A stretch of DNA of 42,484 nucleotides. Source: an uncultured Flavobacteriales bacterium (GTDB taxonomy: Bacteria > Bacteroidota > Bacteroidia > Flavobacteriales_E > Vicingaceae). The first letter of the stretch is position 1. Every line of letters begins with the position of its first letter. The position numbers were made by a program, and so were the translations under genes. Shown piece by piece: positions 1,728 through 42,316 of this stretch. The DNA lies in NCBI GenBank assembly GCA_913048175.1, contig CAJWVX010000010.1, forward strand, positions 1-42,484. Reading direction: 5' to 3'. The notes under the pieces were generated by a model. The model saw only the letters and a program-made list of their open reading frames with translations. It had not been told where the DNA came from and searched no databases.

Positions 1728-1731
1728 TCGT

Positions 1732-1858: not shown

Positions 1859-1863
1859 CAATA

Positions 1864-3105
1864 ATGTTTCAGAAATCAATCATACTACTTTTAACTTTTT
1901 TCTCTTTATTTTTAACTGAAGGATTTGGTCAAAATGCTGATTGCGATAACATGTTGATTTTAAAAGATACTATTTATCATACCAAGGCTATTTCTGGTTA
2001 TGGAACTAAAAAAGAGTTTTCAGATAATGCCTTGGAAGATGCTAAGACTTTTGAAAAAGAAGCGAATTCTATTTGGTATTTTATTGTTGCTAAAGAAGAT
2101 GCTGTTTTAACTTTTGATATTATTACAGAAAGTGCAACTGACGATTGGGATTTTGTATTTTATGAATACTCAAAGGGCTTTTGTAAAAACATTGTTAATA
2201 ATAAATTGGTGGCTTTAAGGTCTAACCTTTCTCGTAGCGCAATTACAGGTTTATCTCGAAGAGGAAAAACAAGTTTTGTGGGGGCTGGGGTTAATGCGAA
2301 TTATAGCAAACCAATAAGAGTTAAAAAAGGAGCTAGATATGTATTGGTAGTAAATAATCCTAAAAGATCTGGAGGAAAACATACGTTAATACTTCATTAT
2401 CCCAAAAAGAATAATACTAAAAAAGCAGTAGTAAAAACTAAAGTTGAAAAAGAAGTTGTAGCACCTGTTTCGTTAGTTACTAATTTTAAAATGAAGATCA
2501 AGGATGCCTCTACTAATGAACCAGTTCTGGCTTATGCAACTATTTCTGGATTAAAAGATGGTGTTGTTGAGGTTCTAGAAGAATCAATGTTTAAAAAGGA
2601 ACTTTCTAAAAAGAACCATAAAATAATTATTGATGTTTCAGCTAAGGGATATATGTTGACGTCTAAAGGGTTTAAAATTAGTAAAAACAGGACCTCTTTT
2701 TTGGCAGAAGTAGCGCTAGAAAAAATTGAGGCTGGTAAAAGAGTAAATCTCAAAAACATTCAATTTCATGGTAATAGATATGATTTTCTTCCTAAAGCAA
2801 CAAGTTCCTTAATGGCTTTATTGTCTTTTATGAAAGAGAATCCTAATGTTGTAATAGAGATTGAAGGACATGTAAATGGCCCAGGTAAAAAAAATACGAA
2901 AGACTATCAAGAGTTATCTTACAGTAGGGCTTTCGCTGTAAAAGAGTATTTAACGAAAAATGGAATTGTTAAAGATAGGATCGGCTTTAAAGGATATGGT
3001 AATTCAGAAATGTTATATCCAAATCCTAAAAGTCCGCATCAAGAATCTGCAAATAGAAGAGTAGAAATTAAAATATTATCCAATGAGTATAATTCTGGGA
3101 ATTGA
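1864..3105 (+). CDS. OmpA-family outer-membrane protein
   Basis: 413 residues with an N-terminal signal peptide (about 1-23, ending GFGQ). Residues 25-180 look like a beta-sandwich with several Cys and no family I can name. Residues 208-285 resemble a carboxypeptidase-regulatory-like beta domain (TNEPVLAYATISG). Residues 300-405 form an OmpA C-terminal peptidoglycan-binding domain: a beta strand with EGHVNG, LSYSRAFAV, the GYGNSE turn and the final NRRVEI. The protein probably sits in the outer membrane or periplasm and anchors it to the cell wall. Its last 23 bases overlap the start of tsaB in another frame, so the two are cotranscribed. The start is fixed by the signal peptide and by the promoter just upstream. 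Confidence 0.85.
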   Translation: MFQKSIILLLTFFSLFLTEGFGQNADCDNMLILKDTIYHTKAISGYGTKKEFSDNALEDAKTFEKEANSIWYFIVAKEDAVLTFDIITESATDDWDFVFYEYSKGFCKNIVNNKLVALRSNLSRSAITGLSRRGKTSFVGAGVNANYSKPIRVKKGARYVLVVNNPKRSGGKHTLILHYPKKNNTKKAVVKTKVEKEVVAPVSLVTNFKMKIKDASTNEPVLAYATISGLKDGVVEVLEESMFKKELSKKNHKIIIDVSAKGYMLTSKGFKISKNRTSFLAEVALEKIEAGKRVNLKNIQFHGNRYDFLPKATSSLMALLSFMKENPNVVIEIEGHVNGPGKKNTKDYQELSYSRAFAVKEYLTKNGIVKDRIGFKGYGNSEMLYPNPKSPHQESANRRVEIKILSNEYNSGN

Positions 3106-3760
3106 AACTTCCACAAAAATTTGTTCAGTAGCTGTTACTGATGGCAATAATTTATTGGCATTAAAAGAAGAGGGTGGTGATTATTCTCATTCAGAAAAGC
3201 TGACAATTTTTATCCAAGATGTTTTAAAAAAGGCAAGCTTAGAGTTGGCGGATGTTGATGCTGTTGCAGTAAGTAAAGGGCCTGGTTCTTATACTGGTTT
3301 GCGAATTGGAGTTTCTGTTGCAAAAGGATTATGTTATGCTTTAGATAAGCCTTTAATTGCAGTAGATACATTGCAAGCAATGGCTAAAAATCCTTCTTTA
3401 AAGTCGACTCTCTATTGCTCTATGATAGATGCTAGAAGAATGGAAGTTTTTACAGCTATTTATGATGGCAATAATAATATGGTTGAGCCAATTACCGCAA
3501 AAATTATTGATGAGAATTCGTTTTCAGAAGTTTTAAAGGATAATGAAATACTCTTTTTTGGCGATGGTGCAGCTAAGTGTAAAGAGGTTCTTTCTGGTAA
3601 TTCAAACGCTATTTTTAGCAAAGAAGGGTTGCCTTCGGCACAATATGTTAATGAAATAGCTTTAGAAAAGTTTGAGAAGCAAGAGTTTGAAGATATGGCT
3701 TATTTTGAACCTTATTACCTAAAAGATTTTGTAGCAACTACACCAAAAAAGTTGTTGTAA
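3083..3760 (+). CDS. tsaB: tRNA threonylcarbamoyladenosine biosynthesis protein TsaB
   Basis: 225 residues. TsaB is the ASKHA-fold partner of TsaD in making t6A37 in tRNAs that read ANN codons. The N-terminus ILGIETSTKICSVAV is the phosphate-1 loop of the fold, and KGPGSYTGLRIGVSVAKGL (about 65-83) is the TsaB signature. Length is normal for the family. The ATG lies inside the 3' end of the OmpA-family gene (23-base overlap), suggesting translational coupling with an unrelated envelope gene. It converges with the PrcB-like lipoprotein gene 16 bases downstream. Confidence 0.95.
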   Translation: MSIILGIETSTKICSVAVTDGNNLLALKEEGGDYSHSEKLTIFIQDVLKKASLELADVDAVAVSKGPGSYTGLRIGVSVAKGLCYALDKPLIAVDTLQAMAKNPSLKSTLYCSMIDARRMEVFTAIYDGNNNMVEPITAKIIDENSFSEVLKDNEILFFGDGAAKCKEVLSGNSNAIFSKEGLPSAQYVNEIALEKFEKQEFEDMAYFEPYYLKDFVATTPKKLL

Positions 3761-3776
3761 AGTTTTATTTTAAGGC

Positions 3777-4271
3777 TTAAAAACCTTTGCCACATTCATT
3801 TACTTTTAAAGTTTTTGTAAATGTAATTTCTTTATCTGTTTTAGGAATTTCTATTAACTGAAACGGATAAACCATAACTGTTGGAGAATTACAGGTGCTT
3901 CCTGGTTTGTTTTCTTCAGCGATTATAATAACGCGATTTTTAGTTTCTAAAACCGATTCGATTTTAATAGAATAGCTTCCATTATTTCTTTCGCCCAAAG
4001 CTACTGCAATCAGCATTTTGTTTTCAAAATCAAAACTTGGAATAGGCGGTTTTCTGTCGTAATTAGCAAATAAGTTGACCCATACAGCAGTAAGTTCATT
4101 AAAATTACGAATCTCAAAAGTTGTAAACGCTAAATAATTACTGTTTTCGCCTGTTTTAATTTCTGTAAAAGTTATAGGAGATTCTTTTGGTTTAAGATCT
4201 TTACTGCTCTTACATGAGAATAATGTTATTGTTGCAAATATTAGGTGTAAAATTAGGATGTTATTTTTCAT
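3777..4271 (-). CDS. PrcB-like lipoprotein
   Basis: 164 residues with a lipoprotein signal: hydrophobic stretch followed by TLFSC, Cys20 being the likely lipidated residue. The C-terminal half matches the PrcB C-terminal domain as I know it: KMLIAVALGERNNGSYSI (about 85-102), then KPGSTCNSP with a second Cys and a beta strand ending YPFQLIEIPKT. PrcB was first described with the dentilisin protease complex of Treponema; in Bacteroidota these are usually single lipoproteins of unknown function. The next gene on this strand is the tiny lipoprotein at 4306-4425, so the two may share a transcript with pdxJ. The family assignment rests on pattern memory. Confidence 0.6.
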   Translation of the reverse strand: MKNNILILHLIFATITLFSCKSSKDLKPKESPITFTEIKTGENSNYLAFTTFEIRNFNELTAVWVNLFANYDRKPPIPSFDFENKMLIAVALGERNNGSYSIKIESVLETKNRVIIIAEENKPGSTCNSPTVMVYPFQLIEIPKTDKEITFTKTLKVNECGKGF

Positions 4272-26851: not shown

Positions 26852-29800
26852 ATGAAAAAAATTAAGTTAGCTATATTATTTGCGTTTTTTACTGTTGTAG
26901 TAAATGCTCAGCTTACTGTAAATACGGGTGTTTTAACGCCAACACAGTATGTTCAAAACGTATTGGTTGGTGCTGGAGTTACTATCTCAAATGTGACATT
27001 TACGGGAGATGTGAGTCAGTTAGGGGAATTTAATGGCGTTAACACGAATATTGGACTTGGAACAGGATTAATTATGGCGACTGGTGATGTAAATGTTGCA
27101 GTTGGACCAAATGATGATGGCTCTTCAACTTTGCCTATGGGTGGATTATTTGGTCCTGGAGATGCGGATTTGGATTTGATAATTAACGATCCATTTGTTA
27201 CGAGTAATGATGCTGTAGTTTTAGAATTCGATTTTATTCCAACTGGCGATACAGTTAAATTTAATTATATCTTTGGTTCTGAAGAGTATCCAGAATTTGC
27301 TCCCCCTATGAATAATGGGTTTAATGATGCTTTTGGTTTTTTTCTAAGTGGCCCTGGAATAGTAGGGCCTTATTCTAATAGTTCAGTAAATATTGCAAAC
27401 ATTCCTGGGACTACCACACCTGTTAGTATTAACAATGTTAATCCGATAACAAATACTGTATTTTATGTTGACAATGGTGATGGAAATACAGCTCCCTTTA
27501 ATACTGGAGCGCAATACATACAGTTTGATGGTTACACAACTGTTTTACAGGCTGTTTATCCTGTTACTTGTGGTTTAAATTATCATATTAAAATAGCTAT
27601 TTGTGATGCTGCAGATGAATCATTTGACTCAGGAGTGTTTTTACAGGCAGGTAGTTTTGCAAGTAATACAGTTGTTTTAAATTCTAATGTTAATATTGGA
27701 GGGAACGACTCGGTTTTGTATGAAGGTTGTGGATCTGCATTATTAGATTTTGTTAGAAGTGATACTTCAGGAACTTCGGTTTACAATTATACTATTGTAG
27801 GTACTGCTGGAGCAACTGATTTTACAATTAGTGCAGATAGTGTAGAGTTTTTTCCTGGACAAGATACCGTTACATTGACTTTTGAGGCTATTCAAGACGG
27901 TTTGGTTGAGCCATTAGAAACAATAACTATTCAATTGATTCAAACAATTTGTAGTGTTATTGATACGCAAAAAGTAACTTTTTATATCAGTGATTTTCCT
28001 ATCCCGATTGTAACTGCCCATGATACGTTTATAGCTTGCGGAAGTACTGATTCTGTGCCAGTTTGGGTGGAGGTGACTGGTCCGCCATATGTAGTTTCGT
28101 GGAATACCACTCCAGTTCAAATTACGGATACTATTTGGGTAGCTCCAAGTGTAACCCAAGAGTATACTGTTACTGTTTCGGATACGTGTGGTGTTTATGC
28201 CATTATTGATACTTTAGAAGTTATTGTTGTAGCTCCAGCATCAATAACCTTAACTACTCATGATACGATTAAAGCATGTGGGAGTAATGATTCTGTGCCA
28301 GTTTGGGTTACAGTTTTAGGGGCTCCATATACAGTTTTATGGAATACGACTCCAGCTCAAACTACTGACACCATTTGGGTTAATCCAACTGTAACTCAAG
28401 AATACATTGTTACTGTTACTGATGATTGTGGTGTTTATATTGTTTTAGATACAGCTGAGGTTCTTGTTGTTCCACCAACACCAATTACTTTAACGATGTC
28501 TTTAGATAGTACTAAGTATTGTATCCAAGATAGTATTGAGATTTATGTTGAATCTTCTGGGGGAGGTGGAGGCTTTACTTATATCTGGAATCCATTAGGA
28601 TTAGCAGATACTAACTTTTTTGTAAATCCAATTATTACAACAACTTATGTTGTTGAGGTAACAGATATTTGTGGAACAATAGAGAAGGATTCTGTTACAA
28701 TAACTGTTCCTAATTTTGTGCCATTAACAGCTAGTATTATAAATGTTGATGATACCGTTTGTTCTGGCGAGTTGGTTGTTTTAAATGGAGCAGTTGCTGG
28801 AGGAGTGGATGCTTATTTTTCTTGGGATAACGGATTAGGCAATAATTCTCCAGTGAATGTTAATCCAGTTACAACTACAACTTATATCTTAACTGGACAA
28901 GATAGCTGTGGTGCTATAGAAAGAGATACTGTTACAATAACAATTATACCTACAGTATTTACGCTTCATTTACCCGATTCAATTACGTTTAATTGCTTTG
29001 GTGAAAATGCACTACTAGACCCTGAAACTTTTGATGGAGATGGTCTAGAAACTTATCTTTGGTCAACAGGGCAGGTTACGGAAATAATTTCTGTAATGCC
29101 ATCAACTACTACCATATATACCCTTAAAGTTACTTCAGGAGACGGTTGTTCATTTTTGTATGACACAACTAAGGTTATTCTGCCAATATTTTTACCTGTA
29201 GTTTTAGAAGTAAACCAAGATGATTCTATCGCTTGTCCTGGAGATCCAGTGGTTTTATTTGGAACTATTTATGAAGGTTCAGGAGATCCCTTAATTATTA
29301 ATTGGTCTGATGGGGCAAATATTTTTACTGGAAATAACATTATTGTAAACCCATTAATAACAACAACCTATACTGCTTGGGTTAATGATACTTGTGCTCA
29401 AGATTTTGGAGCAATCGACTCTTTAACTGTTACTGTTCCAATATATACACCTTTAGTGTTTGATTATTTTTCTCCAGATACTCTAATCTGTTTAGGCAGT
29501 CAAGCTAATTTAGGAGGTTCAATTTCTGGCGGAGAAGGGAACTATTTTTACTCTTGGAGTAATGGATCAACTTCTGATTCAATTAGAGTAACCCCAACTT
29601 TTAGTAGAGGTTATAGTGTAAAAGTTTCTGATGCCTGTGGTGTTCAGATTGATACTTCGGTTTATGTAACTGTTTCGGCTCCTACAGCCAATTTTAATTT
29701 CGAATATCAAACGGTTATGGAGGTTCAGTTTTATGATTCATCATACAGTAATATAACTGCCTATTTTTGGACTTTTGATAATGGGACTTCTATAGCAGAA

Positions 29801-30178
29801 AATCCATTACATAATTTCAATTATGATGGAGCTCATGATGTTTGGTTATTGGTAGTAGATATAAATAACTGTCGTGATAGTATTTTAAAAACAGTTAAAC
29901 CTTCATTGTTGGTTTACGCTCCAAATTCTTTTTCTCCAAATGGAGATGGATTAAATGATGAATTTAAATTTAAAGGAGTAGGAGTAAAATCATTCAATCT
30001 ATTAATTTATAATAGGTGGGGGGAGTTAATGTTTCAGACGGATAATATAAATAACGGATGGAATGGGACTCTAAAAGGTGAAGAAATTCCGTTAGGCGTT
30101 TATGTTTACAAGGTTAGAGCAGAATCTTATGAGGGTATTGAATTTGAAGAAGCTAATAAATTACAACTGATTAAATAA
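26852..30178 (+). CDS. Large secreted adhesin-like protein with type-B T9SS sorting domain
   Basis: 1108 residues. Signal peptide about 1-19 (VVNAQ). Residues about 20-270 form a choice-of-anchor-L domain (GVNTNIGLGTGLIMATGDV, FDFIPTGDTVKFNYIFGSEEY, NDAFGFFLSGPG). A Calx-beta-like segment (about 280-378) follows, then a chain of Ig-like modules each with paired Cys and a T--Y-V-V-D-CG core. Two of these (390-469 and 470-549) are near-identical 80-residue repeats. A PKD-like module lies near 940-1015. The last 90 residues (NSFSPNGDGLNDEF ... LLIYNRWGE) are the gliding-motility-associated type-B sorting domain that directs export by the type IX system to the surface. Probably an adhesin or motility-related surface protein. 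Its 3' end overlaps gpmI by eight bases, convergently. Confidence 0.9.
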   Translation: MKKIKLAILFAFFTVVVNAQLTVNTGVLTPTQYVQNVLVGAGVTISNVTFTGDVSQLGEFNGVNTNIGLGTGLIMATGDVNVAVGPNDDGSSTLPMGGLFGPGDADLDLIINDPFVTSNDAVVLEFDFIPTGDTVKFNYIFGSEEYPEFAPPMNNGFNDAFGFFLSGPGIVGPYSNSSVNIANIPGTTTPVSINNVNPITNTVFYVDNGDGNTAPFNTGAQYIQFDGYTTVLQAVYPVTCGLNYHIKIAICDAADESFDSGVFLQAGSFASNTVVLNSNVNIGGNDSVLYEGCGSALLDFVRSDTSGTSVYNYTIVGTAGATDFTISADSVEFFPGQDTVTLTFEAIQDGLVEPLETITIQLIQTICSVIDTQKVTFYISDFPIPIVTAHDTFIACGSTDSVPVWVEVTGPPYVVSWNTTPVQITDTIWVAPSVTQEYTVTVSDTCGVYAIIDTLEVIVVAPASITLTTHDTIKACGSNDSVPVWVTVLGAPYTVLWNTTPAQTTDTIWVNPTVTQEYIVTVTDDCGVYIVLDTAEVLVVPPTPITLTMSLDSTKYCIQDSIEIYVESSGGGGGFTYIWNPLGLADTNFFVNPIITTTYVVEVTDICGTIEKDSVTITVPNFVPLTASIINVDDTVCSGELVVLNGAVAGGVDAYFSWDNGLGNNSPVNVNPVTTTTYILTGQDSCGAIERDTVTITIIPTVFTLHLPDSITFNCFGENALLDPETFDGDGLETYLWSTGQVTEIISVMPSTTTIYTLKVTSGDGCSFLYDTTKVILPIFLPVVLEVNQDDSIACPGDPVVLFGTIYEGSGDPLIINWSDGANIFTGNNIIVNPLITTTYTAWVNDTCAQDFGAIDSLTVTVPIYTPLVFDYFSPDTLICLGSQANLGGSISGGEGNYFYSWSNGSTSDSIRVTPTFSRGYSVKVSDACGVQIDTSVYVTVSAPTANFNFEYQTVMEVQFYDSSYSNITAYFWTFDNGTSIAENPLHNFNYDGAHDVWLLVVDINNCRDSILKTVKPSLLVYAPNSFSPNGDGLNDEFKFKGVGVKSFNLLIYNRWGELMFQTDNINNGWNGTLKGEEIPLGVYVYKVRAESYEGIEFEEANKLQLIK
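28019..28498 (+). repeat. Two tandem 240-bp repeats inside the adhesin gene
   Basis: The units 28019-28258 and 28259-28498 are closely similar in DNA and in the 80-residue modules they encode; both start with CATGATACG and carry TGATTCTGTGCCAGTTTGGG shortly afterwards. A recent internal duplication of one Ig-like module, able to vary in copy number by recombination. Confidence 0.8.
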
Positions 30179-31743: not shown

Positions 31744-32025
31744 TTAAACCTTTACTCGAAGAATACAAACCTCATCTATTTGTTCTAACTGTCCTCTCCA
31801 GGATTCAAAATTTTCGATAAGAATTTATTGTTGTGCTTTTATTATTTTATCTTAATGGATAAAAGCAGTTTTAAAAAGGTTTTAGACATAATTTTTTGCC
31901 CTTTTATTCACCTAATTGATATGCATAGTCATCAGAAAAAAATAAATAGTATCTCCCTTTTGAAAATCAAAAGTATGCTTAGTGTAAAAATCTGAATTTT
32001 TAAATTGACCAATAGGTTATTTATT
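31744..32025 (-). pseudogene. Remnant of a SpoIIE/PP2C phosphatase C-terminus
   Basis: The minus strand reads PIGQFKNSDFYTKHTFDFQ, then KGDTIYFF, then (after one missing T in a T run) SDDYAYQLGE, a stop, KGKKLCLKPF, and finally IENFESWRGQLEQIDEVCI with LRVKV and TAA at 31744-31746. This is the C-terminal third of a SpoIIE-type phosphatase: compare DSIYLSSDGYVDQFGG and QVDDATIIGIKL of the intact phosphatase at 38972. At least one frameshift and several stops make it dead. The rest of the gap 32026-32408 shows no intact gene; upstream parts may continue in too eroded a form to read. Confidence 0.75.
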
Positions 32026-32211
32026 CGCCTTTTTTGCTAGAATATTTCTGTTCAGAGCTTTATTGGGTAAGCCTTCAGATATTGAACTAGGAACAGATGT
32101 GTTTTTAGACAGTAATGCAGAAAATCTAAAGTGATCAAAGGCTATTGTGTTTGCTAATTTTTATTTGCAATTACGCGAATATCAAACGTTTTTTCATTTA
32201 GAATTCAATTA

Positions 32212-32242
32212 CGTTGGGAAAACAAATACCAGCATTAGGAAA
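32212..32242 (+). repeat. Diverged 31-bp repeat, copy 1
   Basis: 27 of 31 bases are identical to 38882-38912. In the phase in which both are open, the copies read LRWENKYQH and LRWVNKYQH, each followed soon by a stop. Either a fragment of a duplicated coding sequence or a shared upstream element; both copies precede signalling genes on the plus strand. Confidence 0.55.
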
Positions 32243-32408
32243 GTGTTAATAAGTAACTCTGAAAGAGGGAACTATATTTATGAAATTATTTATGTGGTTA
32301 CGATATTAATATTTCTCAAAACTTAATTCTAGGATTTATTTGATAATAACTACTATTAGTAATAAAATTTACAAAAAGAGATTAATAGTAATATAAAAAA
32401 GACAAGTT

Positions 32409-32945
32409 ATGAAAGGAATCATCTTTACCGAATTTTTAGAGTTAGTCGAAAATGAGTTTGGCTTAGCAATGGTTCAACAGATAATTGATGAATGCGAACT
32501 GGATACAGATGGTGTTTATACCTCTGTAGGCACATATAGCCATAAAGACATGTTTAAAATGGTTGGAAAGTTATCTGAAATAAAGGGGGTTCCAATCCCT
32601 GAACTGTTAACCGTTTTTGGCGAATATTTTTTTAACACTCTAAGTAATGATTACCCGCAATTTATGAAACAGGCTAATTTGTTTGGGTTTTTAGATTCCA
32701 TTGAAAGTTATATTCATCCAGAAGTTTTAAAGTTATACCCAGATGCAGAATTACCTGCCTTCGGTTCAGAAATAAAAAATGAAAATGAGTTATTTTTAAA
32801 TTATCTATCATCAAGAAAATTGTCTGATTTGGCAATTGGTTTGATAAACGGTGCATCGAAGTATTTTAATGAGGAGGTTAATGTTTTTAAAGTTAGTGAA
32901 GAGGATGGTGGCGAAAAAGTGATGTTGAAAATAAAGAAAATTTAA
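32409..32945 (+). CDS. H-NOX heme-based gas sensor (HNOB domain)
   Basis: 178 residues, a stand-alone H-NOX domain. It binds heme and senses NO or O2, usually passing the signal to a partner histidine kinase by direct contact. Visible features: MKGIIFTEFLELVENEFG at the N-terminus, VYTSVGTYSHKDM, the proximal heme ligand His103 in SYIHPEVLKLYPDAELP, and the heme-propionate motif YLSSR (Tyr132, Ser134, Arg136). No Tyr lies in the stretch just after Arg136 where O2-binding members carry a distal Tyr, so NO selectivity is likely (inference). It ends seven bases before a histidine kinase gene, the classical H-NOX/kinase arrangement. No clear promoter was found; 400 bases of eroded DNA precede it. 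Confidence 0.92.
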   Translation: MKGIIFTEFLELVENEFGLAMVQQIIDECELDTDGVYTSVGTYSHKDMFKMVGKLSEIKGVPIPELLTVFGEYFFNTLSNDYPQFMKQANLFGFLDSIESYIHPEVLKLYPDAELPAFGSEIKNENELFLNYLSSRKLSDLAIGLINGASKYFNEEVNVFKVSEEDGGEKVMLKIKKI

Positions 32946-32952
32946 TGTTGCT

Positions 32953-34566
32953 ATGGAGATAGAACTACTTGAAAAAGCCTTGAAAAGGCAGAAATTAGCA
33001 CGAAAAGAGGCGGAGAGTCTACTTGAAAGAAAGAGTTTAGAGTTATATAATGCCAACTTAAGGCTACAAGAGGTAATTACAAATACTAATTTATTTCCGG
33101 AGGAAAATCCGAACCCAGTGATGAGATGTTCTGGACATACATATGATTTAATGTATGCTAATAAGCATGGTAAAGAAATTAATATGTTTTTAAACAGCTA
33201 TACAGGTAGAAGGGTAAAAGAAAAATTTACGCAAGAATTGAGTCTTTCCTTTGAAAAAGGAATTCATAATCAATTTGATATGGCAATTGAAAATAAAACG
33301 ATGAGGTTTAATCTTGTTCCATTTCCGTTAAAAAATTATATAAATATATATGCATCTGATATCACGGATATAAAAGCAACAGAAGTTCGGATGCAAAATA
33401 TTACGGCTACATTAAAGCAGGCACAACAACTAGCAAGAATGGGAAGCTGGGAGTTAGATATTGCCTCTAATCATATGATTTGGTCTGAAGAATTGTTTCA
33501 TGTTTTACAAGTTGACCCAGAAAAATTCATTCCATCCCATGAAAGTTATATTAATCTTTTGCATCCAGACGATAAGCAGATAAGTAATGATGCAGTTAAT
33601 AAAGCAATTAAATACAAGAAAGAGTTTGTTTTGATACACAGACGAATATTTGATAATAGAGAGGAAATATATTTAGAATGTCGAGGACAAATTGATTTAG
33701 GAAAAGATGGTAAAGTCAAACGTTTGTATGGTATTTGTATTGACGTTTCTTCTAAAATTAAAGCACAGCAAGCAAAAGAAGGTTTTACGAAAGAACTGGA
33801 AGTAAAAGTAAAGGAACGAACAGAGGAGTTGATTAATAGTGAGCATAAGTTAAGATTATCTTTAGTTAAAGAAAAAGAGTTGGGGGAATTAAAAACTAGT
33901 TTTGTTTCAATGGCATCACATCAATTTAGAACACCATTAGCTGTTATTCAGTCAAATTTGGGATTGCTTGAAATTCTTAACAGCATTGATGAAAATCAAG
34001 AACCAGAAAAGTATAAAAAAGTAACTGGTCGTATTGCAGGAGAAATTACTAAAATGACTGAGTTAATTGATGAAGTTCTAATTTTAGGTAAATTGACATC
34101 AGGAAACGTTCATTATGACCCTCAAGATATCGATTTGATTGAGTGTTGCAAGGTCTTAAATAAACAATTTAATTCGATACAACAAGATGGAAGAATTATA
34201 GATTTTGAGATTGAAGGACAGCCATACAATATAAAGTTAGACTCTAAATTGCTAACACATTCATTATCTAATTTATTTAGCAATGCTTTTAAATATTCTG
34301 AAAAAAAAAACAATCCTAAATTAAAAATAATCTTTAGGCCAAAAGAACTTAGTATAATTGTGAAAGATTATGGTATTGGCATCTCACATACTGAAATACC
34401 CAACTTATTTCAACCCTTCTTTCGTGCAAAAAATGCAACAGAAATTAAGGGTACTGGCTTAGGCTTGAGTATTGCAAAGGAATATATCGAAATTAATAAG
34501 GGGCATATTGATGTTAAATCCGTATTGGGAGAAGGTAGTTGCTTTGAAATAAAATTTAATCGTTAA
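32953..34566 (+). CDS. PAS sensor histidine kinase, probable H-NOX partner
   Basis: 537 residues with no membrane segment, so cytoplasmic. N-terminal coiled coil (1-45), a degenerate PAS-like region (about 47-140), a PAS_3-type domain (about 160-272: ARMGSWELD, LLHPDDK, ECRGQID), a second coiled coil ending VKERTEELINSE, then HisKA with MASHQFRTPLAVIQSN (phosphoacceptor His323) and HATPase_c: SNLFSNAFKYS (N box), DYGIGIS, and GTGLGLSIAKEY. All catalytic motifs are intact. Seven bases after the H-NOX gene, hence probably cotranscribed and regulated by its heme state. It lacks its own receiver; the receiver proteins downstream are candidate targets. Confidence 0.9.
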   Translation: MEIELLEKALKRQKLARKEAESLLERKSLELYNANLRLQEVITNTNLFPEENPNPVMRCSGHTYDLMYANKHGKEINMFLNSYTGRRVKEKFTQELSLSFEKGIHNQFDMAIENKTMRFNLVPFPLKNYINIYASDITDIKATEVRMQNITATLKQAQQLARMGSWELDIASNHMIWSEELFHVLQVDPEKFIPSHESYINLLHPDDKQISNDAVNKAIKYKKEFVLIHRRIFDNREEIYLECRGQIDLGKDGKVKRLYGICIDVSSKIKAQQAKEGFTKELEVKVKERTEELINSEHKLRLSLVKEKELGELKTSFVSMASHQFRTPLAVIQSNLGLLEILNSIDENQEPEKYKKVTGRIAGEITKMTELIDEVLILGKLTSGNVHYDPQDIDLIECCKVLNKQFNSIQQDGRIIDFEIEGQPYNIKLDSKLLTHSLSNLFSNAFKYSEKKNNPKLKIIFRPKELSIIVKDYGIGISHTEIPNLFQPFFRAKNATEIKGTGLGLSIAKEYIEINKGHIDVKSVLGEGSCFEIKFNR

Positions 34567-34638
34567 AAGATATCTAGCATCTAAAAAATAGGATGTTAAA
34601 CAGGTTTAGCTCACTTAACAGGCTTAATTATAAATAGA

Positions 34639-36261
34639 ATGAGAGTCATGAATAAAAGGTCCTATGAGGAATTGGAGAAAGAACTCCTTGAGTTGAAAAA
34701 TATTCATGTTAGAGATTTAAAAAACAAAGAATATAAAATGCTTTTCGATTCTATGCCAGAAATGATTGAGGTTATAGAAGTTATTTATAACAAGAGTTGC
34801 GAACCCATCGATTTCTATATCCGTGATATAAACCTTTCTTTTGCAAAGTTTTTAGGTAAGCCCAGGGAGCAATTAATAAACAAAAAAGGATCCTCTATAA
34901 TTGGTAAAATAGCAGCGCAGCATTGGGTGATTTCTTTTTCTAGTGTTGATAAAACAGGAAAGCAAATCAGCTTTAAAAATTATAGCACAGAACTTGATAC
35001 GTATTATTACGTTCTATCATGGAAAATCTCAAAAAATAGAGTGGGGATTTCTTTTACTGAGATTACTGAAAATGAAAAGGCTGAAATTGAAAAACAAAAA
35101 TTTAATGAAACTATATTAGATAATATCCCTGCTGACATTGCTGTTTTTGATAAAAATCATAATTATTTATATGTAAATCCAAATGGTATTCGTGATCTTG
35201 AAACTAGAAAATGGATGATTGGAAAAAACGATTTTGAGTATTGCGGTTTTAAAAACTTAGACAATTCTTTGGCTCAAAATAGACGAGATCTTTTTAATAA
35301 ATCAATTCAAACTAATCAGCAAATAGAATGGGTTGATAAGTATAATAAAGAGGGAGAAGATGTTTTTATAATGCGCAAGTTTTACCCTGTTTTTATTGAT
35401 GATATATTTCATTACGTAATAGGTTATGGGATGGATATTTCTGAATTAACAAAAGCGAAAATCGAACTAAGCCAGTTGAATAATAGCCTTGAAGAAAAAG
35501 TTAATGATCGAACAGTAGAGTTGATTAATAGCGAAAAGAAGTTAAAATTATCTTTACTTAAAGAAAAAGAGTTAGGAGAATTAAATGCCAGCTTTGTGTC
35601 AACAGCATCTCATCAATTTAGAACACCTTTAGCCGTTATTCAGTCAAATACAGAATTATTAGAAATGTTTGTCAGCACTGGAGAAAAAATTGAAACAGAA
35701 AATTATAAAAGAGTAACTGGACGTATTACAGGAGCAATTGCTAGAATGACGGGATTAATGGATGATGTTTTTATTTTAGGTAAATTAACATCAGGAAACA
35801 TCGGCTATAAACCTAAAGAGGTCGATTTGATTCGGTTTTGCGAGGTTTTGGCAAAACAGTTTAATGCTTTTCAAACGGATGGAAGAAGTATAAATATTGT
35901 TACAGATGGTGAGGCATATAAAACTGATTTAGATCCTAATTTACTAATGCATGCATTATCTAATTTAATTAGTAATGCTTTTAAGTATTCACTAAGAAAA
36001 ATTAATCCTGAGCTGTTTATAAATTTTAAACCAACAGAATATGTATTATCAATAAAGGATTATGGAATAGGTATTTCTCAAGAAGAACAATCAAATCTAT
36101 TTCAACCATTTTTTAGAGCTAATAATGTTTCAGAAATTAAAGGAACTGGACTTGGGTTAAGTATTGCAAAAGAATACGTTGAAATTAATAGAGGGCATAT
36201 TTCAGTTAAATCGAAATTAGGAGAAGGCAGTTGTTTTGAAATAACCTTTAAACGAAAATAA
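34639..36261 (+). CDS. PAS sensor histidine kinase, transmitter paralogue
   Basis: 540 residues, cytoplasmic. The N-terminus is a short coiled coil, then two PAS-like domains (about 30-145 and 155-272; ILDNIPADIAVFDKNHNYLYVN opens the second). From about residue 280 the protein parallels the preceding kinase almost line for line: NDRTVELINSEKKLKLSL, STASHQFRTPLAVIQSN (His325), LGKLTSGN, SNLISNAFKYS, DYGIGIS, GTGLGLSIAKEY and LGEGSCFEI. The sensory halves are unrelated in detail, so the pair shares one duplicated transmitter with different inputs. Start at 34639; an ATG at 34648 is an alternative. No sign of an H-NOX of its own. Confidence 0.9.
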   Translation: MRVMNKRSYEELEKELLELKNIHVRDLKNKEYKMLFDSMPEMIEVIEVIYNKSCEPIDFYIRDINLSFAKFLGKPREQLINKKGSSIIGKIAAQHWVISFSSVDKTGKQISFKNYSTELDTYYYVLSWKISKNRVGISFTEITENEKAEIEKQKFNETILDNIPADIAVFDKNHNYLYVNPNGIRDLETRKWMIGKNDFEYCGFKNLDNSLAQNRRDLFNKSIQTNQQIEWVDKYNKEGEDVFIMRKFYPVFIDDIFHYVIGYGMDISELTKAKIELSQLNNSLEEKVNDRTVELINSEKKLKLSLLKEKELGELNASFVSTASHQFRTPLAVIQSNTELLEMFVSTGEKIETENYKRVTGRITGAIARMTGLMDDVFILGKLTSGNIGYKPKEVDLIRFCEVLAKQFNAFQTDGRSINIVTDGEAYKTDLDPNLLMHALSNLISNAFKYSLRKINPELFINFKPTEYVLSIKDYGIGISQEEQSNLFQPFFRANNVSEIKGTGLGLSIAKEYVEINRGHISVKSKLGEGSCFEITFKRK

Positions 36262-36499
36262 AAAAATGAAATTTGTAGCTAAAATATAAATCTATTGGTT
36301 AAAAAACTTGTTAAATAGAGATAAAATATGCTCTTTTTCTCTAAAAGTTAAATAGTGTTTTGATTATAGTTATGACTCAATTATTTTCTGACTTTAATGA
36401 ATAACAATTTTTTCATACTAAATTACATCAATTTCGAACTTGATTAAGAGTTCTCAAGGTAAAGATGTTTTACTTCAAATAACGCTAAGTAATGGTTAA

Positions 36500-36880
36500 A
36501 AAAGAAAATGAGAAATGCTAAGGAAACTAACTGTTAGTGTTAACGCAGGAGCTGTTGATTTAAGAACGATTTTTTTGGAAAGTAAATTTATTAACCTGTC
36601 TTTCAAATAAAGTGCTTACATAATTTGATTAGCAATACTTTTACATATTTTATTTAAAAAATAACACTCAATTGGAGGGGTCATTATAATCCAAAAGAAC
36701 TTCGTATGATTGTGAACTATATTCAATAATTAGGAAAAGGAAAATTTAAAAACCATACAAGCACTTATTTTTTATAAAAAATAATGTTTAAATTAAATTT
36801 GCATAGTTAATCTTAGAAAGAATATATCGAGCAACCAAATAACCGTAAATTCTAATTAGGTTTACTGAACTAACATGAAA
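36500..36880 (+). pseudogene. Remnant of a third histidine kinase transmitter
   Basis: Pieces of the neighbouring kinases can be read here in changing frames. LRKLTVSVNAGAVDLRT (from about 36518) parallels LGKLTSGN...VDLIRF. TAATTTGATTAGCAATAC and the following bases (36621-36643) match 20 of 23 bases of the N-box DNA of the second kinase (35961-35983). Positions 36691-36716 match 24 of 26 bases of the first kinase (34339-34364, the PKELSIIV strand). GAATATATCGA at 36820-36830 equals the KEYIE codons. Stops and frameshifts are frequent. The 240 bases before 36500 show nothing I can assign. Confidence 0.7.
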
Positions 36881-36901
36881 AAAAGTTAATAAACATAAGT
36901 T

Positions 36902-37885
36902 ATGCATACTATATTGATAATTGAAGATGAAAAGATATTGCGCGAAACATTAGCCGATATCTTAGAAATTAGTGGATATATTGTTATTCAAGCCAGAGAT
37001 GGAGAGAGTGGAATAGAAATGTTTTCTAAAACAGTTCCTGATTTGGTAATATGTGATATAAATATGCCTAAAATGGATGGTTTTGAAGTATTACAAATTT
37101 TAGAGGCTGTTATGCCAGCATCTAAATTTCCTCCATTTATATTTCAATCTGCTAAAACAGAACCAGAGAACATTCGTAAAGGGATGAACTTAGGCGCTAC
37201 AGATTTTATTACAAAGCCATATTCTGCGCCAGAATTATTAAAAGTTATTGGACTAAGACTCCTGGAGAGAAAAAAACTAGAAGAAGCATTAGTACGGGAT
37301 GAAAGAATAAGAATAGCTAAAGAATTGCAAGGAGGTGTTCAGCGCTTAGTCACCGCAGCTAGCGAAGGAGTTACAGCCCTTGCTGGTCGTTTAGATGAAA
37401 TGTCTAGAGAGAACCAAGATTTGCTTAATAACTCAGGCCAATTACTTCGTCAAGCAATTTCAGAAATACGTTCTGTTTCAAACGATTCAAAAATTGATTT
37501 AATCAAAATACAAGCACTTGAAAAATACCTTAACTTAATCTTTGAGACAACTTTGTTTTCTAAAGATGTAAAGCTGCATCTCACTATTGATTTAGAGGGA
37601 GATTTATTGCCACACCAATTACAGATAGAAATCTGCCTATTGGTTAGAGAAATGATAAACAATACGCTAAAACATGCAAAAGCCCAAACTGTTTCCTTAA
37701 AAATTTTAAGAATAAAAAAGGAGATACAGTTAGCCTTTCAAGATGACGGTATAGGTTTTGACATAAATCAATTTACATCAGGAAATGGATTACAAAATAT
37801 CAGGAAAAAATTAGCTGAATTAAACGGTAAATTTTCAATAGAATCTGAACCAAACAAAGGGACAAAAATACAGTTAACACTTTAA
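36902..37885 (+). CDS. Receiver domain fused to a degenerate HisKA_3-type kinase (His to Gln)
   Basis: 327 residues. Receiver 1-120: IIEDE (acidic pocket), phosphoacceptor Asp52 in CDINMPKMDG, Ser83 and Lys105 (TKPY). Residues 130-200 are a NarX/DesK-type dimerisation region in which the usual ELHDG/ELHDS reads ELQGG: Gln143 replaces the phosphoacceptor His (the downstream paralogue has ELHDS). The HATPase part is intact: EMINNTLKHAKA (N box), QDDGIGFD and GNGLQNIRKKL. It should bind ATP but not autophosphorylate in the normal way, so it may be a phospho-sensing regulator or partner of another kinase. A perfect 14-bp hairpin overlaps its stop codon. Confidence 0.85.
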   Translation: MHTILIIEDEKILRETLADILEISGYIVIQARDGESGIEMFSKTVPDLVICDINMPKMDGFEVLQILEAVMPASKFPPFIFQSAKTEPENIRKGMNLGATDFITKPYSAPELLKVIGLRLLERKKLEEALVRDERIRIAKELQGGVQRLVTAASEGVTALAGRLDEMSRENQDLLNNSGQLLRQAISEIRSVSNDSKIDLIKIQALEKYLNLIFETTLFSKDVKLHLTIDLEGDLLPHQLQIEICLLVREMINNTLKHAKAQTVSLKILRIKKEIQLAFQDDGIGFDINQFTSGNGLQNIRKKLAELNGKFSIESEPNKGTKIQLTL

Positions 37886-37915
37886 ACTGCTTATTTTACA
37901 TAAATAAGCAGTTTA
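37883..37915 (+). terminator. Perfect 14-bp hairpin at the end of the receiver-pseudokinase gene
   Basis: TAAACTGCTTATTT (37883-37896, starting with the stop codon) pairs perfectly with 37902-37915 around a five-base loop. It is followed by an A run rather than a T run on the plus strand, so it is not a textbook terminator; it may end, process or protect the mRNA 3' end ahead of the LytTR gene. Confidence 0.45.
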
Positions 37916-37983
37916 GAAAAAAAAGGCTACTTTAAAAATTAATAAAGGGTTGTATTTAAAATCAAGCGGAATACAAAATAATT

Positions 37984-38733
37984 ATGGAAAAAATACTCGT
38001 AGTTGAAGATGAACAAGATATAAGAGAAACTTTACAGGATATTCTTGAGTTGGCAGGCTATGAGGTACTAATTGCGAGTAATGGTAAAAAGGGTTACAAT
38101 GTTATTCTCGATAACCAACCCGATTTGGTGCTTTGTGACGTAAATATGCCAGAATTAGATGGTTTTGGATTACTTGGAGCAGTTAATCAACGATTAAAAG
38201 ATAAAATAGTTCCTCCTTTTCTTTTTCTTACCGCTAAAGTTGAAAAAGAAGATATGCGTTATGGTATGAGTTTGGGTGCAGATGATTATATTTTTAAACC
38301 CTTTAACTCTAATGAGATTTTAAAAACAGTAAGACTTCGTTTAGATAAGCGTCAACAGTTATTAAAGCTGAGTACTAACAATTCAGAGTTAGTCATAAAA
38401 GACGTTAACAAATTAGCGCTACCTTGTGATGATGGTTTAGAATTAATTTCTTTTGATAAAATTATTAAGTGTCAGGCAGATAGATCATACTGTAATTTTC
38501 ATCTGATAGGCAATAGGAAAATACTAGTTTCTAAACCTATGAAAGAGTTTGAAGAGATATTAACCAGTAAAAGTTTTTTAAAAGTTCATAAATCTACCAT
38601 TGTAAACATTAAGTATATTGAAAAATTTGTTAGAGGAAAAGCTGGTCATTTACTCATGTCAGACGGATCAATTGTAGCTGTATCAGTTCGAAAAAAAGAA
38701 GAACTAATACATTTATTAAAATCAAAAATTTAA
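37984..38733 (+). CDS. LytTR-family response regulator
   Basis: 249 residues. Receiver 1-120: VVEDE, Asp52 in CDVNMPELDG, Thr83 and Lys105 (FKPF). The LytTR DNA-binding domain spans about 142-247, with KLALPCDDGLELISFDKI, CQADRSYCNFHL, LVSKPMKEFEEIL, FLKVHKSTIVN and the end VSVRKKEEL. It is the only intact DNA-binding output among the four receiver proteins of this island, hence the likely transcriptional arm. The 238-base gap after it contains the second copy of the 31-bp repeat and a -7 like element, but no gene. Confidence 0.93.
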   Translation: MEKILVVEDEQDIRETLQDILELAGYEVLIASNGKKGYNVILDNQPDLVLCDVNMPELDGFGLLGAVNQRLKDKIVPPFLFLTAKVEKEDMRYGMSLGADDYIFKPFNSNEILKTVRLRLDKRQQLLKLSTNNSELVIKDVNKLALPCDDGLELISFDKIIKCQADRSYCNFHLIGNRKILVSKPMKEFEEILTSKSFLKVHKSTIVNIKYIEKFVRGKAGHLLMSDGSIVAVSVRKKEELIHLLKSKI

Positions 38734-38881
38734 CATTATAATAGCTTATCATGGAATTGATATAACCAACATAATGTTTAAAGTGTTTATTTCAGCATTC
38801 TTATTTTTTCTACTAAAATGGCTTAATTTCTAACTGAAATTTAGTTTGTACATGATTTTTTTTCGGTATAAAATAGAGTTG

Positions 38882-38912
38882 CGTTGGGTAAACAAATATC
38901 AACATTCGGAAA
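38882..38912 (+). repeat. Diverged 31-bp repeat, copy 2
   Basis: Partner of 32212-32242 (27 of 31 identical). Lies in the gap between the LytTR and phosphatase genes, 60 bases before the phosphatase start. The surrounding bases (about 38868-38925) also show weaker similarity to the first copy's flanks. Confidence 0.55.
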
Positions 38913-38942
38913 TTAACGACACACTATTTTAGATTACGCAAC

Positions 38943-38950
38943 TACATTTG
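38943..38950 (+). promoter_or_regulatory. Candidate -7 element for the SpoIIE-type phosphatase gene
   Basis: TACATTTG, matching TAnnTTTG, 21 bases upstream of the ATG at 38972. No -33 TTG at the expected distance. Confidence 0.35.
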
Positions 38951-38971
38951 CGTTAAAATTATATCATTTGT

Positions 38972-40225
38972 ATGGGTACAATATTGATTATTGAAGATGA
39001 AAAAATATTAAGAGAAACATTGGCGGAGATCATAGGGCTTAATGGCTATAAAGTTGTTCAAGCAAGAGATGGAGAGGAAGGTGTAGAAGTTTTTACTGAA
39101 ACAACTCCAGATTTAGTTCTTTGCGATATAAATATGCCTAAAATGGATGGCTTAAATGTTTTAAAAGTAATTCGACAGAATGATGAATTAAAACACACTC
39201 CTTTTGTTTTTTTAAGTGCACTATCCTCAATGCCTGATCTTCGTTTAGGAATGAATAAAGGTGCTGATGATTACTTAACTAAACCTTTTCATTACAAAGA
39301 ATTGTTATCCACGATTTCACTCCAGCTAAAAAAGTCAGTAGAACTAAAAAAAATTGGAAGAGAGTATTCAAGGAAAAACATAAAGGATTATAAAGTTAAA
39401 ATAAAGGGAAAAACAAAGGGGTTCCTTGATAGCTTAAATCGTGCAAAAACAATACAAAATGTAATTTTGCCAAGTGCACAAAAAATGGATGAATTACTTC
39501 CCAATCATTTTAATTATTTCCTGCCCAAATACGTTATTTCGGGTGATTTTTATTTAGTAAGAAAATTTAAGGGAATCACCTTAATTGCTGTTGCAGATTG
39601 TACAGGTCACGGAATGCCTGGAGCATTAATATCAATGGTTTGTAATATGAGTTTAATTAACGCGTTAGATCAGTTTGGATTAACAAAACCTGCAGAGATT
39701 TTGACTAAAGCAAATGACATTTTTTTAGACTTTATGAATACAAACGAGAGTAATATTTCTAAGGATGGAATGGATATTTGTTTATGTTCCATAGATAGTA
39801 ATTCTAACTTAATTCGATTTGCTGGAGCAAAGCGCCCGTTATATTTAATTACTAAAATAAATAAATTTAAACCTGTTAGTATAAGTAATAATTTCTCAGG
39901 ATTAATAGAGGAAGAAGATGTTCTATATGAAATTAAGGGGAACAACTGTTCTGTTGGTTCTGAGGATCCAATTTTTGAAGTTGAAGAACAAATTTTTGAA
40001 TACAATAATGGAGATTCAATATACTTAAGTTCAGATGGTTATGTTGATCAGTTCGGGGGAGATTTAGACCGGAAATTTAAATCAAAAAAGTTGAAAAAAT
40101 TACTTCTATCCATTCATAACAAAACGATGTCTGAACAAAAAAAACTATTAGCTCATGAATTTCAGAGTTGGAGAGGAAATAAAGAGCAAGTTGATGATGC
40201 AACAATTATTGGCATTAAGCTATAA
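38972..40225 (+). CDS. Response regulator with SpoIIE/PP2C-type serine phosphatase output
   Basis: 417 residues. Receiver 1-120 with Asp52 (CDINMPKMDG), Ser82 and Lys104; its first 60 residues are strikingly close to those of the 36902 protein. A basic coiled linker (125-165) leads to a SpoIIE domain: SGDFYLV (190-196), VADCTGHGMPGALISM (207-222), DGMDICL (Asp268), LSSDGYVDQFGG (Asp355) and QVDDATIIGIKL (Asp408, Asp409). All metal-binding Asp positions appear present. Such proteins usually dephosphorylate an anti-sigma or anti-sigma-antagonist partner; none is encoded here, so the target lies elsewhere. Confidence 0.92.
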   Translation: MGTILIIEDEKILRETLAEIIGLNGYKVVQARDGEEGVEVFTETTPDLVLCDINMPKMDGLNVLKVIRQNDELKHTPFVFLSALSSMPDLRLGMNKGADDYLTKPFHYKELLSTISLQLKKSVELKKIGREYSRKNIKDYKVKIKGKTKGFLDSLNRAKTIQNVILPSAQKMDELLPNHFNYFLPKYVISGDFYLVRKFKGITLIAVADCTGHGMPGALISMVCNMSLINALDQFGLTKPAEILTKANDIFLDFMNTNESNISKDGMDICLCSIDSNSNLIRFAGAKRPLYLITKINKFKPVSISNNFSGLIEEEDVLYEIKGNNCSVGSEDPIFEVEEQIFEYNNGDSIYLSSDGYVDQFGGDLDRKFKSKKLKKLLLSIHNKTMSEQKKLLAHEFQSWRGNKEQVDDATIIGIKL

Positions 40226-40253
40226 TAGAAATGAACACTTAAACTGTATCGTT

Positions 40254-40663
40254 ATGATAAAAAACACTATTAGTAGATGATCACAAAATAATAAGGGACG
40301 GAGTAAAGGCAATGCTTTCTCAAATGAAAAACATTAAAGTAGTAGGATAATGTAGTAACGGGATTTAAGCTATAGCTTATGTAAAAGAACAAAGTAATGA
40401 GGTTGGCACAACTATAATGGCATCATTTTTTAAATGAAAAAAATTGGTTTTTTCCTAAAGAATTTTCTACAAGAGAACTTGAGGTTTTAGTCTGCATTTC
40501 AGAAGGGTTAACCAACAAGCAGACAGGAAAAAAACTTTTTATAAGTGCTATAACATTTGAGACACATAGAAGTAAGTTATTACATAAAGCAGAGGTAAAT
40601 AATACTATAGAATTAATTAAATATTGTATAAAAAATTTAAGAATAAAATATGACATATTATAA
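40254..40663 (+). pseudogene. Decayed NarL/LuxR-type response regulator gene
   Basis: ATG at 40254 would start MIK, but an extra A in an A6 run shifts the frame, after which TLLVDDHKIIRDGVKAMLSQ and MKNIKVVG follow. Stops occur at 40348-40350 and 40366-40368 within what should be the receiver. The central and distal receiver, including the phosphoacceptor Asp, is missing. In another frame, from about 40448, the DNA-binding domain is well preserved: FSTRELEVLVCISEGLTNKQ, KLFISAITFETHRSKLLHKA and NNTIELIKYCIKN, ending at TAA 40661-40663. A recent pseudogene formed by frameshifts plus an internal deletion. Confidence 0.88.
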
Positions 40664-40704
40664 TAAATTAGTGCTAATTGTATCCCATAAAAAATAAAAA
40701 ATAA

Positions 40705-41691
40705 ATGTGTAAGACAAAAGAAACCATTTTAGTTGTTGAAGATGACTCAGAAATCAGAGAATCATTAAAAGAGATTTTAAAATTGAAAGGGTATCAAGTA
40801 CAAACAGCAAATAATGGAGAGGAAGGACTTTCGACTATTGTTAGAGAAAATCCTACATTAGTAATATGTGATGTAAATATGCCTATAATGGGAGGGTTTG
40901 AACTGTTAAAGAAATTGAATGACAGTATGAAAAAAGAAGTTATTCCTCCCTTTTTATTTTTAACTGCAAGAGTTGCAAGTTCAGATATGAGAACAGGAAT
41001 GACCTTGGGCGCAGATGACTATATTACAAAGCCTTTTAGTGCTTTAGACTTGCTGACTAATGTAGCATTAAAAATAAATAAACGTAAAAAAATACAGTTA
41101 TTGGCTATAAGCGAAGAGCAGAACAGAATTTCTGATGAATTACACGATAGCATTCAACAACTATTAGCTGCGGCTCAAATAGGATTTAGTAGTATTGAAG
41201 GTAATATTAGTTTTTTAGATCACAATACCGAAGAAATGTATTCTAGATCAATAAAGTATTTAAAAGAAGCTTCTGTGGAAGTAAGAAATATTTCTCATGA
41301 CATTTCAGTTAAAGAAGAAATAAACTTAGAAGATAAGATTAACAATCTGTTGCAGCAATTAAATGAGGCTAGTAAAATTGAGACTAATTTTATTTGTCAG
41401 GAAAATAAAATACTTGAAAATACTGTAAAATTTGAATTGTTAAGAATAATTCAAGAAGCAGTGAGTAATATTATAAAGCATGCAAAAGCAAAAAGTATAA
41501 CGGTATATATTGAATCCAATAATAATGGTGGTAAAATAGAAATAACCGATAATGGAAAAGGTTTTAACCTTAATAACCATATTAAAGGTAGAGGATTAGA
41601 AAGTATGAGACAGAGAGCTAAAAAAATAAAAGCATCTTTGAATATAATATCAAGTTCTAATGAAGGCACTTCAATAAGTTTAGACTGGTAA
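40705..41691 (+). CDS. Receiver domain fused to HisKA_3-type histidine kinase
   Basis: 328 residues. Receiver 1-125: VVEDD, Asp56 in CDVNMPIMGG (Gly where MDG is usual), Thr87 and Lys109. The kinase half has the NarX/DesK-type motif RISDELHDSIQQLL (His147 present), the N box EAVSNIIKHAKA, TDNGKGFN and GRGLESMRQRA. It is thus an intact counterpart of the 36902 protein with the same architecture. Such kinases normally phosphorylate NarL/LuxR regulators; the only one nearby is the dead gene directly upstream, so this kinase may have lost its cognate partner. The N-terminal MCKTKET extension is longer than in the sister proteins. Confidence 0.9.
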   Translation: MCKTKETILVVEDDSEIRESLKEILKLKGYQVQTANNGEEGLSTIVRENPTLVICDVNMPIMGGFELLKKLNDSMKKEVIPPFLFLTARVASSDMRTGMTLGADDYITKPFSALDLLTNVALKINKRKKIQLLAISEEQNRISDELHDSIQQLLAAAQIGFSSIEGNISFLDHNTEEMYSRSIKYLKEASVEVRNISHDISVKEEINLEDKINNLLQQLNEASKIETNFICQENKILENTVKFELLRIIQEAVSNIIKHAKAKSITVYIESNNNGGKIEITDNGKGFNLNNHIKGRGLESMRQRAKKIKASLNIISSSNEGTSISLDW

Positions 41692-41935: not shown

Positions 41936-42316
41936 ATGGTAAAAAAGAATAAGTATGATAATTTAACTATTAAAATTAGTTAGAACAGAAAATAATTGAG
42001 TTTTGAGTACAGTATCAATAGTGCTATACTAAGGTGTTGGAGGCATAAATTTGAAGCTAAATCTGTTAATTTTTCTATGAAAAGAGCAGTGTCTTTTGAA
42101 GAGTTAGGGCTGAAATTATTAAAGAAAGAACTCAAAGATGTTCAAATGGAGCGAGATATATTAAAAAACCATTGGGTATCTTCTCTAATTGTATATCCAT
42201 TTACTATTTCAGGTTTAAACTCTATCGATAAATTTTTCTGTATTCTCAGGATCAATTCGATAATTGAGGAGTATGCGGTGATCTATTATTCCTTTAAATT
42301 GTATTCAATGTTGTAA
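41936..42316 (+). pseudogene. IS3-family transposase orfA remnant
   Basis: ATG 41936 gives MVKKNKYDNLTIKIS and then a stop at 41981, resembling the basic N-terminus of IS3 OrfA proteins. A reading frame from 41996 continues with SAILRCWRHKFEAKS and EELGLKLLKKELKDVQMERD, then ILKNH, the leucine-zipper end of OrfA. At about 42165 a one-base loss shifts the conserved KKALGIFS ending into the next frame (LGIFSN is readable from 42172). No orfB was recognised before the right edge, and the terminal repeats are not identifiable. The element is an inactive fragment. Confidence 0.75.

Follow-up and report, generated by a model that had tools for sequence, protein, structure and literature searches.

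In Shewanella oneidensis and Vibrio cholerae, the H-NOX gene neighbors that of a kinase from which more than one receiver-output protein is supplied, an arrangement known as HnoX-HnoK-HnoB/C/D (PMC8846402; PMC8738867), and the HnoX-HnoK-HnoB/D network acts on cyclic di-GMP (c-di-GMP; PMC8846402). Here, we describe a signaling island from an uncultured Flavobacteriales bacterium of the Vicingaceae (contig CAJWVX010000010.1 of assembly GCA_913048175.1, 42,484 nt, the whole of which is referred to below as the window), in which an H-NOX gene is accompanied on the same strand by genes for two histidine kinases (HK1 and HK2) and four receiver (REC) proteins (RR1 to RR4). This gene content, which an original prediction had read from the letters of the window, was confirmed by Pfam searches and inspection of the open reading frames (ORFs), as was the presence of an intact H-NOX gene 7 bp before a PAS kinase. 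Unlike the HnoB/C/D network, whose outputs centre on c-di-GMP (the phosphodiesterase HnoB and the inhibitor HnoD) plus HnoC, the island has as its outputs LytTR, SpoIIE and two HisKA_3-type kinases, one intact and one dead, alongside two kinases of one transmitter type; Pfam assigned HATPase, LytTR, SpoIIE and HisKA_3 outputs to its receivers and no EAL or HD-GYP-type output. Saccharophagus degradans resembles the present organism in having two H-NOX genes per genome (PMC8738867), but in that species a single kinase is assigned to the pair, whereas here they have separate kinases with different transmitters. In the open-access literature (subscription papers lay outside the search) no report was found that links H-NOX with SpoIIE or LytTR outputs, in agreement with the expectation that such a combination had not been described.

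The island had been proposed to be centred on H-NOX. Because its receivers and transmitter are conserved in relatives without H-NOX, this is not the case; instead, an existing multi-output array appears to have gained H-NOX control by way of a chimeric HK1, with the H-NOX operon under the type of promoter that the array itself uses, a reading (working scheme included) that we place at roughly two chances in three. Judged from its segments, HK1 is a chimera of an H-NOX-kinase front end and an array-clade transmitter. As predicted, HK1 and HK2 share a transmitter: they are 66.7% identical beyond residue ~285, whereas their N-terminal halves show no relationship. Residues 1-148 of HK1 are of H-NOX-kinase type, with 48-53% identity to canonical, H-NOX-adjacent kinases; residues ~149-285 comprise a PAS_3 region; and residues 286-537 form the island-type transmitter. 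Searches with separate segments returned canonical H-NOX kinases for residues 1-140 (51-53%), and HK2 for residues 286-537 (67%), whereas the PAS region matched nothing closely. Sliding identity to canonical H-NOX kinases was 58-72% over residues 1-80, identity to anything was below 20% over residues 160-280, and from residue 281 it rose to 72% to HK2, placing a break point near this residue. Across 46 genomes of the family, the HK1 N-terminus matched only two kinases at E<=1e-35, both of them H-NOX-adjacent, and a search of viral contigs with HK1 gave zero matches.

The affiliation of the HK1 transmitter is clear from phylogeny. A tree of 117 transmitters places HK1, HK2 and a third kinase of the same genome (on contig C210) in one group (support 98) inside a 38-member clade (support 97) that contains no other H-NOX-adjacent kinase, the remaining 63 of 63 such kinases falling outside it. 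A more careful tree supported the trio at 100/99, and an approximately unbiased test rejected the grouping of HK1 with the canonical H-NOX kinases of loci L017 and L020 (p = 6.1e-7). HK1 thus has the neighbor and the N-terminal module of an H-NOX kinase, but its transmitter is not akin to that of any other H-NOX kinase of the family. The HK1 and HK2 transmitter copies are evidently under purifying selection, since their ratio of nonsynonymous to synonymous substitution rates (dN/dS) is 0.26. H-NOX-adjacent transmitters are distributed over several separate clades of the 117-kinase tree, so that transmitter replacement beside H-NOX would seem to have occurred more than once. The third kinase of the trio (L162, G000:C210, positions 521-4240) is a TPR-type membrane kinase whose transmitter is ~60% identical, and it adjoins an apparent type I restriction-modification methylase.

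An array of the same kind occurs without H-NOX in related bacteria (G003/L053, G044, G025, G030/L167, G033/L055, and G027/L056), which share with the island the transmitter clade and subsets of its receivers and, in several cases, the promoter layout, but in which no H-NOX, HK1 or dead-kinase RR1 was seen. RR3-like REC-SpoIIE proteins with 37-56% identity are present in G003, G044, G033, G027, and G025, where REC-LytTR, REC-HisKA_3 and kinase genes are neighbors in varying subsets. Kinases of the HK1 clade adjoin REC-LytTR in seven relatives, followed by REC-SpoIIE in four and REC-HisKA_3 in one, and in an eighth relative the clade kinase adjoins REC-HisKA_3; H-NOX stands beside the array in none of these array-bearing relatives. 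The neighborhood is therefore conserved with respect to the array and not with respect to H-NOX plus array, and the suggestion of a conserved Bacteroidota version of HnoB/C/D is not supported, as the full combination was found in no other genome and in 0/70 other H-NOX neighborhoods. The receivers point in the same direction: among 145 compared over few alignment columns, RR1 to RR4 fall in one 23-receiver group with receivers from arrays that lack H-NOX (support 77).

The H-NOX operon and RR3 are preceded by a shared promoter architecture. A repeat search revealed 54 nt of similarity between the two upstream regions, each of which contains direct repeats in a 10-11-10 layout upstream of a putative promoter, in line with LytTR sites, in which a spacer of 11-13 nt lies between two repeats of 9-11 nt (PMC4847170). 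At both sites a putative -7 box resembling TAnnTTTG, the sigma-A -7 consensus of Flavobacterium (PMC9723704), starts 62 bp after the repeat core. This core, RCRTTNGG-N13-RCRTTNGG, has exact matches in the genome only at these two sites, the pattern having been derived from the sites themselves, such that the genome scan shows merely that there are no further copies. A promoter model trained on the two sites was compared with a background of 1,454 upstream regions (maximum score 18.0); the REC-SpoIIE promoters of L053 (19.2), L055 (22.4), and L167 (19.2) scored above all of these, and the gene that opens the L056 array gave p = 0.002. Canonical H-NOX operons are without the repeat promoter, their H-NOX genes scoring 1.0-4.5 and their sigma-54-regulator starts 4.4-6.2. 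Since the relatives' REC-SpoIIE promoters score high and the canonical H-NOX operons low, the site before the window H-NOX is, on these scores, a trait of the array's REC-SpoIIE promoter rather than of H-NOX operons. The region upstream of RR1 scores 10.4 without a recognisable repeat. A match upstream of the L112 H-NOX, which gave the top background score, overlaps a REC-LytTR coding region and is probably due to chance, and scans for sigma-70 style promoters and terminators found no more than expected by chance. Upstream of the REC-SpoIIE gene of L057 (G025:C209, ~1140-1260), repeats ending AATTTCTACTATTGTAGAT resemble a Cas12a-type CRISPR array.

The H-NOX protein of the island belongs with the canonical members of the family. 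It is 70% identical to that of L015 and, when aligned at full length to solved H-NOX proteins, of which 6bde and 6ocv are among the nearest, retains His103 and the YxSxR motif (YLSSR, 132-136). H-NOX proteins that bind O2 carry a distal Tyr; the presence of Leu at this position suggests that the window H-NOX is a sensor of nitric oxide (NO). A second, canonical H-NOX locus is carried by the same genome (L020, G000:C51, 10042-16022), in the order sigma-54 regulator, H-NOX, hybrid kinase, further small receivers, and apparent polysaccharide genes, a layout common in the family. Such canonical loci (L020, L015, L017, L018, and L021) have related H-NOX proteins, and L017 and L020 have the same kinase N-terminal module as HK1, but they differ from the island in possessing a hybrid kinase that includes a receiver of its own, a sigma-54 (NtrC-type) regulator and a transmitter of another clade, and in lacking the direct-repeat promoter.

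Each receiver of the island carries a different output. RR1 has the motif ELQGGVQ in place of the ELHDxIQ of RR4 and of the relatives' REC-HisKA_3 proteins, bearing out its description as a pseudokinase; its ATPase boxes look intact. Its receiver is closest to that of RR3 (57% identical as protein and 78% as DNA over 196 nt), and RR1 therefore seems to have arisen by recombination between parts of the island. The two receivers have a dN/dS of 0.30, indicating purifying selection on these copies as well. Control of an anti-sigma factor through SpoIIE, as originally proposed, is only plausible: RR3 has an intact SpoIIE domain under a receiver, in the manner of RsbU-like partner switching, and two stand-alone STAS proteins are encoded elsewhere in the genome (C39 and C44); no anti-sigma gene lies beside either of these, the genome-wide complement of anti-sigma kinases not having been searched. 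In L164 (G001:C93, 222-4213), a clade kinase and REC-HisKA_3 adjoin STAS and HATPase_c_2 genes, a neighborhood that hints at partner switching. The same locus holds, as REC-GerE, the intact homolog of the decayed LuxR-type regulator that directly precedes RR4 in the window.

Copying of transmitter and receivers would be a simple route to the one-to-many coupling envisaged here, and the island is probably still best described, as first predicted, as an H-NOX network that branches to LytTR, SpoIIE and kinase outputs. The strongest competing explanation, which we consider unlikely, is that HK1 and HK2 diverged after duplication into insulated parallel pathways, each serving some of the receivers, with no true branching. 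It draws on the transmitters being 67%, not 95%, identical, on the division of the receivers into RR2/RR4-like and RR1/RR3-like sub-groups, and on the third kinase with the same transmitter, the TPR sensor on C210. Yet in L053, L055, L056, and L167 a single clade kinase adjoins both REC-LytTR and REC-SpoIIE (one of these also REC-HisKA_3), which makes one-to-many coupling the likely older state, and purifying selection on the transmitter copies also speaks against insulation. The features of the window and the arrays of its relatives are listed in Table 1.

Table 1. Features of the island and its surroundings (window coordinates) and composition of related arrays.
Feature	Position	Strand	Remarks
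Decayed SpoIIE 3' end	31747-32055	-	103 residues at 41% to G002 SpoIIE; outside island, left edge
Operator-like direct repeat TTACGTTGGG-N11-CAGCATTAGG	32209-32239	+	Upstream of H-NOX operon
Putative -7 box TATATTTA	32273-32280	+	5/6 to TAnnTTTG; 64 bp from repeat start
H-NOX, haem NO sensor (predicted)	32409-32945	+	Pfam HNOB PF07700, E 2.6e-44, 1-161/163 (full length)
HK1, chimeric kinase	32953-34566	+	PAS_3-HisKA-HATPase_c; starts 7 bp after H-NOX
HK2, PAS kinase	34639-36261	+	Transmitter 67% identical to that of HK1
Scrap of further kinase copy	36691-36716	+	92% identical to 34339-34364
RR1, REC-HATPase_c, HisKA_3-type core	36902-37885	+	Phospho-acceptor His absent (pseudokinase)
RR2, REC-LytTR transcription factor	37984-38733	+	Candidate binder of direct repeats
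Operator-like direct repeat TTGCGTTGGG-N11-CAACATTCGG	38879-38909	+	Upstream of RR3
Putative -7 box TACATTTG	38943-38950	+	6/6 to TAnnTTTG; 64 bp from repeat start
RR3, REC-SpoIIE (PP2C-type) phosphatase	38972-40225	+	Acidic motifs SGDF, DCTGHG, SDGYVDQF, VDDATI retained
Decayed LuxR/NarL-type response regulator	~40260-40640	+	Stops and frameshifts; directly before RR4
RR4, REC-HisKA_3-HATPase_c kinase	40705-41691	+	His of the dimerization and histidine phosphotransfer (DHp) domain present (ELHDSIQ)
L053 array (G003)			Kinase, REC-LytTR, REC-SpoIIE, REC-HisKA_3
L055, L056, L167 arrays (G033, G027, G030 respectively)			Kinase, REC-LytTR, REC-SpoIIE
L054, L057 arrays			REC-SpoIIE, REC-HisKA_3
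L163, L165, L166 arrays			Kinase, REC-LytTR
L164 array			Kinase, REC-HisKA_3

The window is one whole contig of a draft genome (252 contigs, ~3.5 Mb, 90% complete, 3.4% contamination). Its iPGM is 69-81% identical to the iPGM of 13 congeners and the adjoining genes also match the genus, and misbinning of the contig was therefore dropped; the island is not beside iPGM in any of the six congeners examined. The decayed SpoIIE at the left edge was considered as a copy of RR3, an idea abandoned when the complete SpoIIE gene that G002 carries upstream of iPGM, at the same place, proved a better match. By position and similarity, the remnant is an older neighbor gene, not a member of the island, and marks its left border. 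An ORF at 41996-42316, near the contig end, resembles the start of an IS3-type transposase without a Pfam match, and the gene at 26852-30175 encodes a large protein that bears a type IX secretion signal of the CHU_C kind, related genes adjoining iPGM in several congeners. That the island is a recent, partly failed acquisition, now mostly non-functional, is improbable: the LuxR-type pseudogene, the kinase scrap, long gaps and one dead kinase domain have to be set against seven intact ORFs, dN/dS values of 0.26-0.30 between the duplicated copies of transmitter and receiver, a conserved promoter architecture, and the assignment of the SpoIIE remnant to an older gene. Least probable is a chance placement of H-NOX-HK1 beside an unrelated array, which would suit the occurrence of the array without H-NOX in relatives and of the combination in one genome only, but predicts neither an array-clade transmitter within HK1 nor the array's promoter layout before the H-NOX operon.

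Grafting of H-NOX control onto a resident array could have proceeded as follows. The starting state would have been a Bacteroidota array of a one-clade kinase with REC-LytTR, REC-SpoIIE and REC-HisKA_3 effectors, to a copy of whose transmitter an H-NOX-type kinase front end became fused, yielding HK1; the H-NOX-HK1 operon would then have been placed behind a promoter/operator of the type found before REC-SpoIIE as well. H-NOX, with or without bound NO, would set HK1 activity via the N-terminal module of the kinase, and because HK1 and HK2 share a transmitter they would phosphorylate the same receivers. RR2, through LytTR, would bind the direct repeats and so control the H-NOX operon and RR3; RR3 would dephosphorylate a STAS-type or other phosphoprotein; RR4 would serve as a phosphorylation-gated second-tier kinase; and RR1, its dead relative, may either modulate RR4 or act as an acceptor of phosphoryl groups. 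In its fullest form, the proposal is that a kinase chimera retaining the transmitter of a pre-existing multi-output network brought H-NOX into that network, whose own LytTR operator captured the H-NOX operon; transcription, a SpoIIE phosphatase and a second-tier kinase would thereby have come under control that responds to NO and amplifies itself. We regard this as evenly balanced between being right and wrong, and give the same even odds to the view that it combines natural input-domain swapping with promoter capture.

Several observations weigh against this account. The promoter model was trained on two sites; L054 (p = 0.22) and L057 (p = 0.12) fit the layout by eye with scores that are not significant, and the REC-SpoIIE gene of L056 itself gave p = 0.056. 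The regions upstream of HK2, RR2, and RR4 are without such a site (scores 0.4-5.2), and the binder of the repeats may be a regulator other than RR2. Support for the receiver group is modest. Pseudogenes occur in the region, the likely LuxR-type partner of RR4 among them, such that the target of RR4 may be a regulator encoded elsewhere, or RR4 may no longer have an output, and part of the island's output may be dead. Finally, the full assembly of H-NOX and array is present in one draft genome only.

Among 395 genomes of the class, 72 carry H-NOX, and LytTR and SpoIIE genes recur next to it: REC-LytTR is found at 18/70 H-NOX loci compared with 3/80 control loci, and SpoIIE at 9/70 compared with 0/80. 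The controls, which provide a rough yardstick, are receiver-bearing loci of several phyla that came from an alignment scan of genome contigs with REC-SpoIIE as receiver-only matches, had neither H-NOX nor SpoIIE, and were used as controls only. In L087, L090, and L114, H-NOX, kinase, receiver, and REC-SpoIIE are tightly arranged in that order on one strand, as components also found in the island, but their transmitters belong to different clades and neither a LytTR nor a HisKA_3 output adjoins, pointing to a separate coupling. In L130 (G190:C61, 9819-11403), H-NOX overlaps a gene for a 345-residue protein with an N-terminus like the H-NOX-kinase module and a SpoIIE C-terminus, without kinase or receiver, and direct H-NOX control of a phosphatase is possible there. 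The closest REC-SpoIIE relative of RR3 (71%) lies at a contig edge in a different family (L255, G100:C60, 127-1032), possibly through horizontal transfer.

How two-component systems gain new inputs while keeping their specificity is a long-standing question. Laboratory studies fuse foreign input domains to transmitters, and this locus looks like a natural counterpart of such fusions; it is for its likely mode of origin that the island is notable. Kinases related to the two HK1 parents, HK2 on the one side and the canonical H-NOX kinase of contig C51 on the other, persist in the same genome as ready controls, and the question is thus directly testable. Beyond the single locus, LytTR regulators and SpoIIE phosphatases emerge as recurrent neighbors of H-NOX in the class, outside the c-di-GMP outputs stressed in the reviews consulted.

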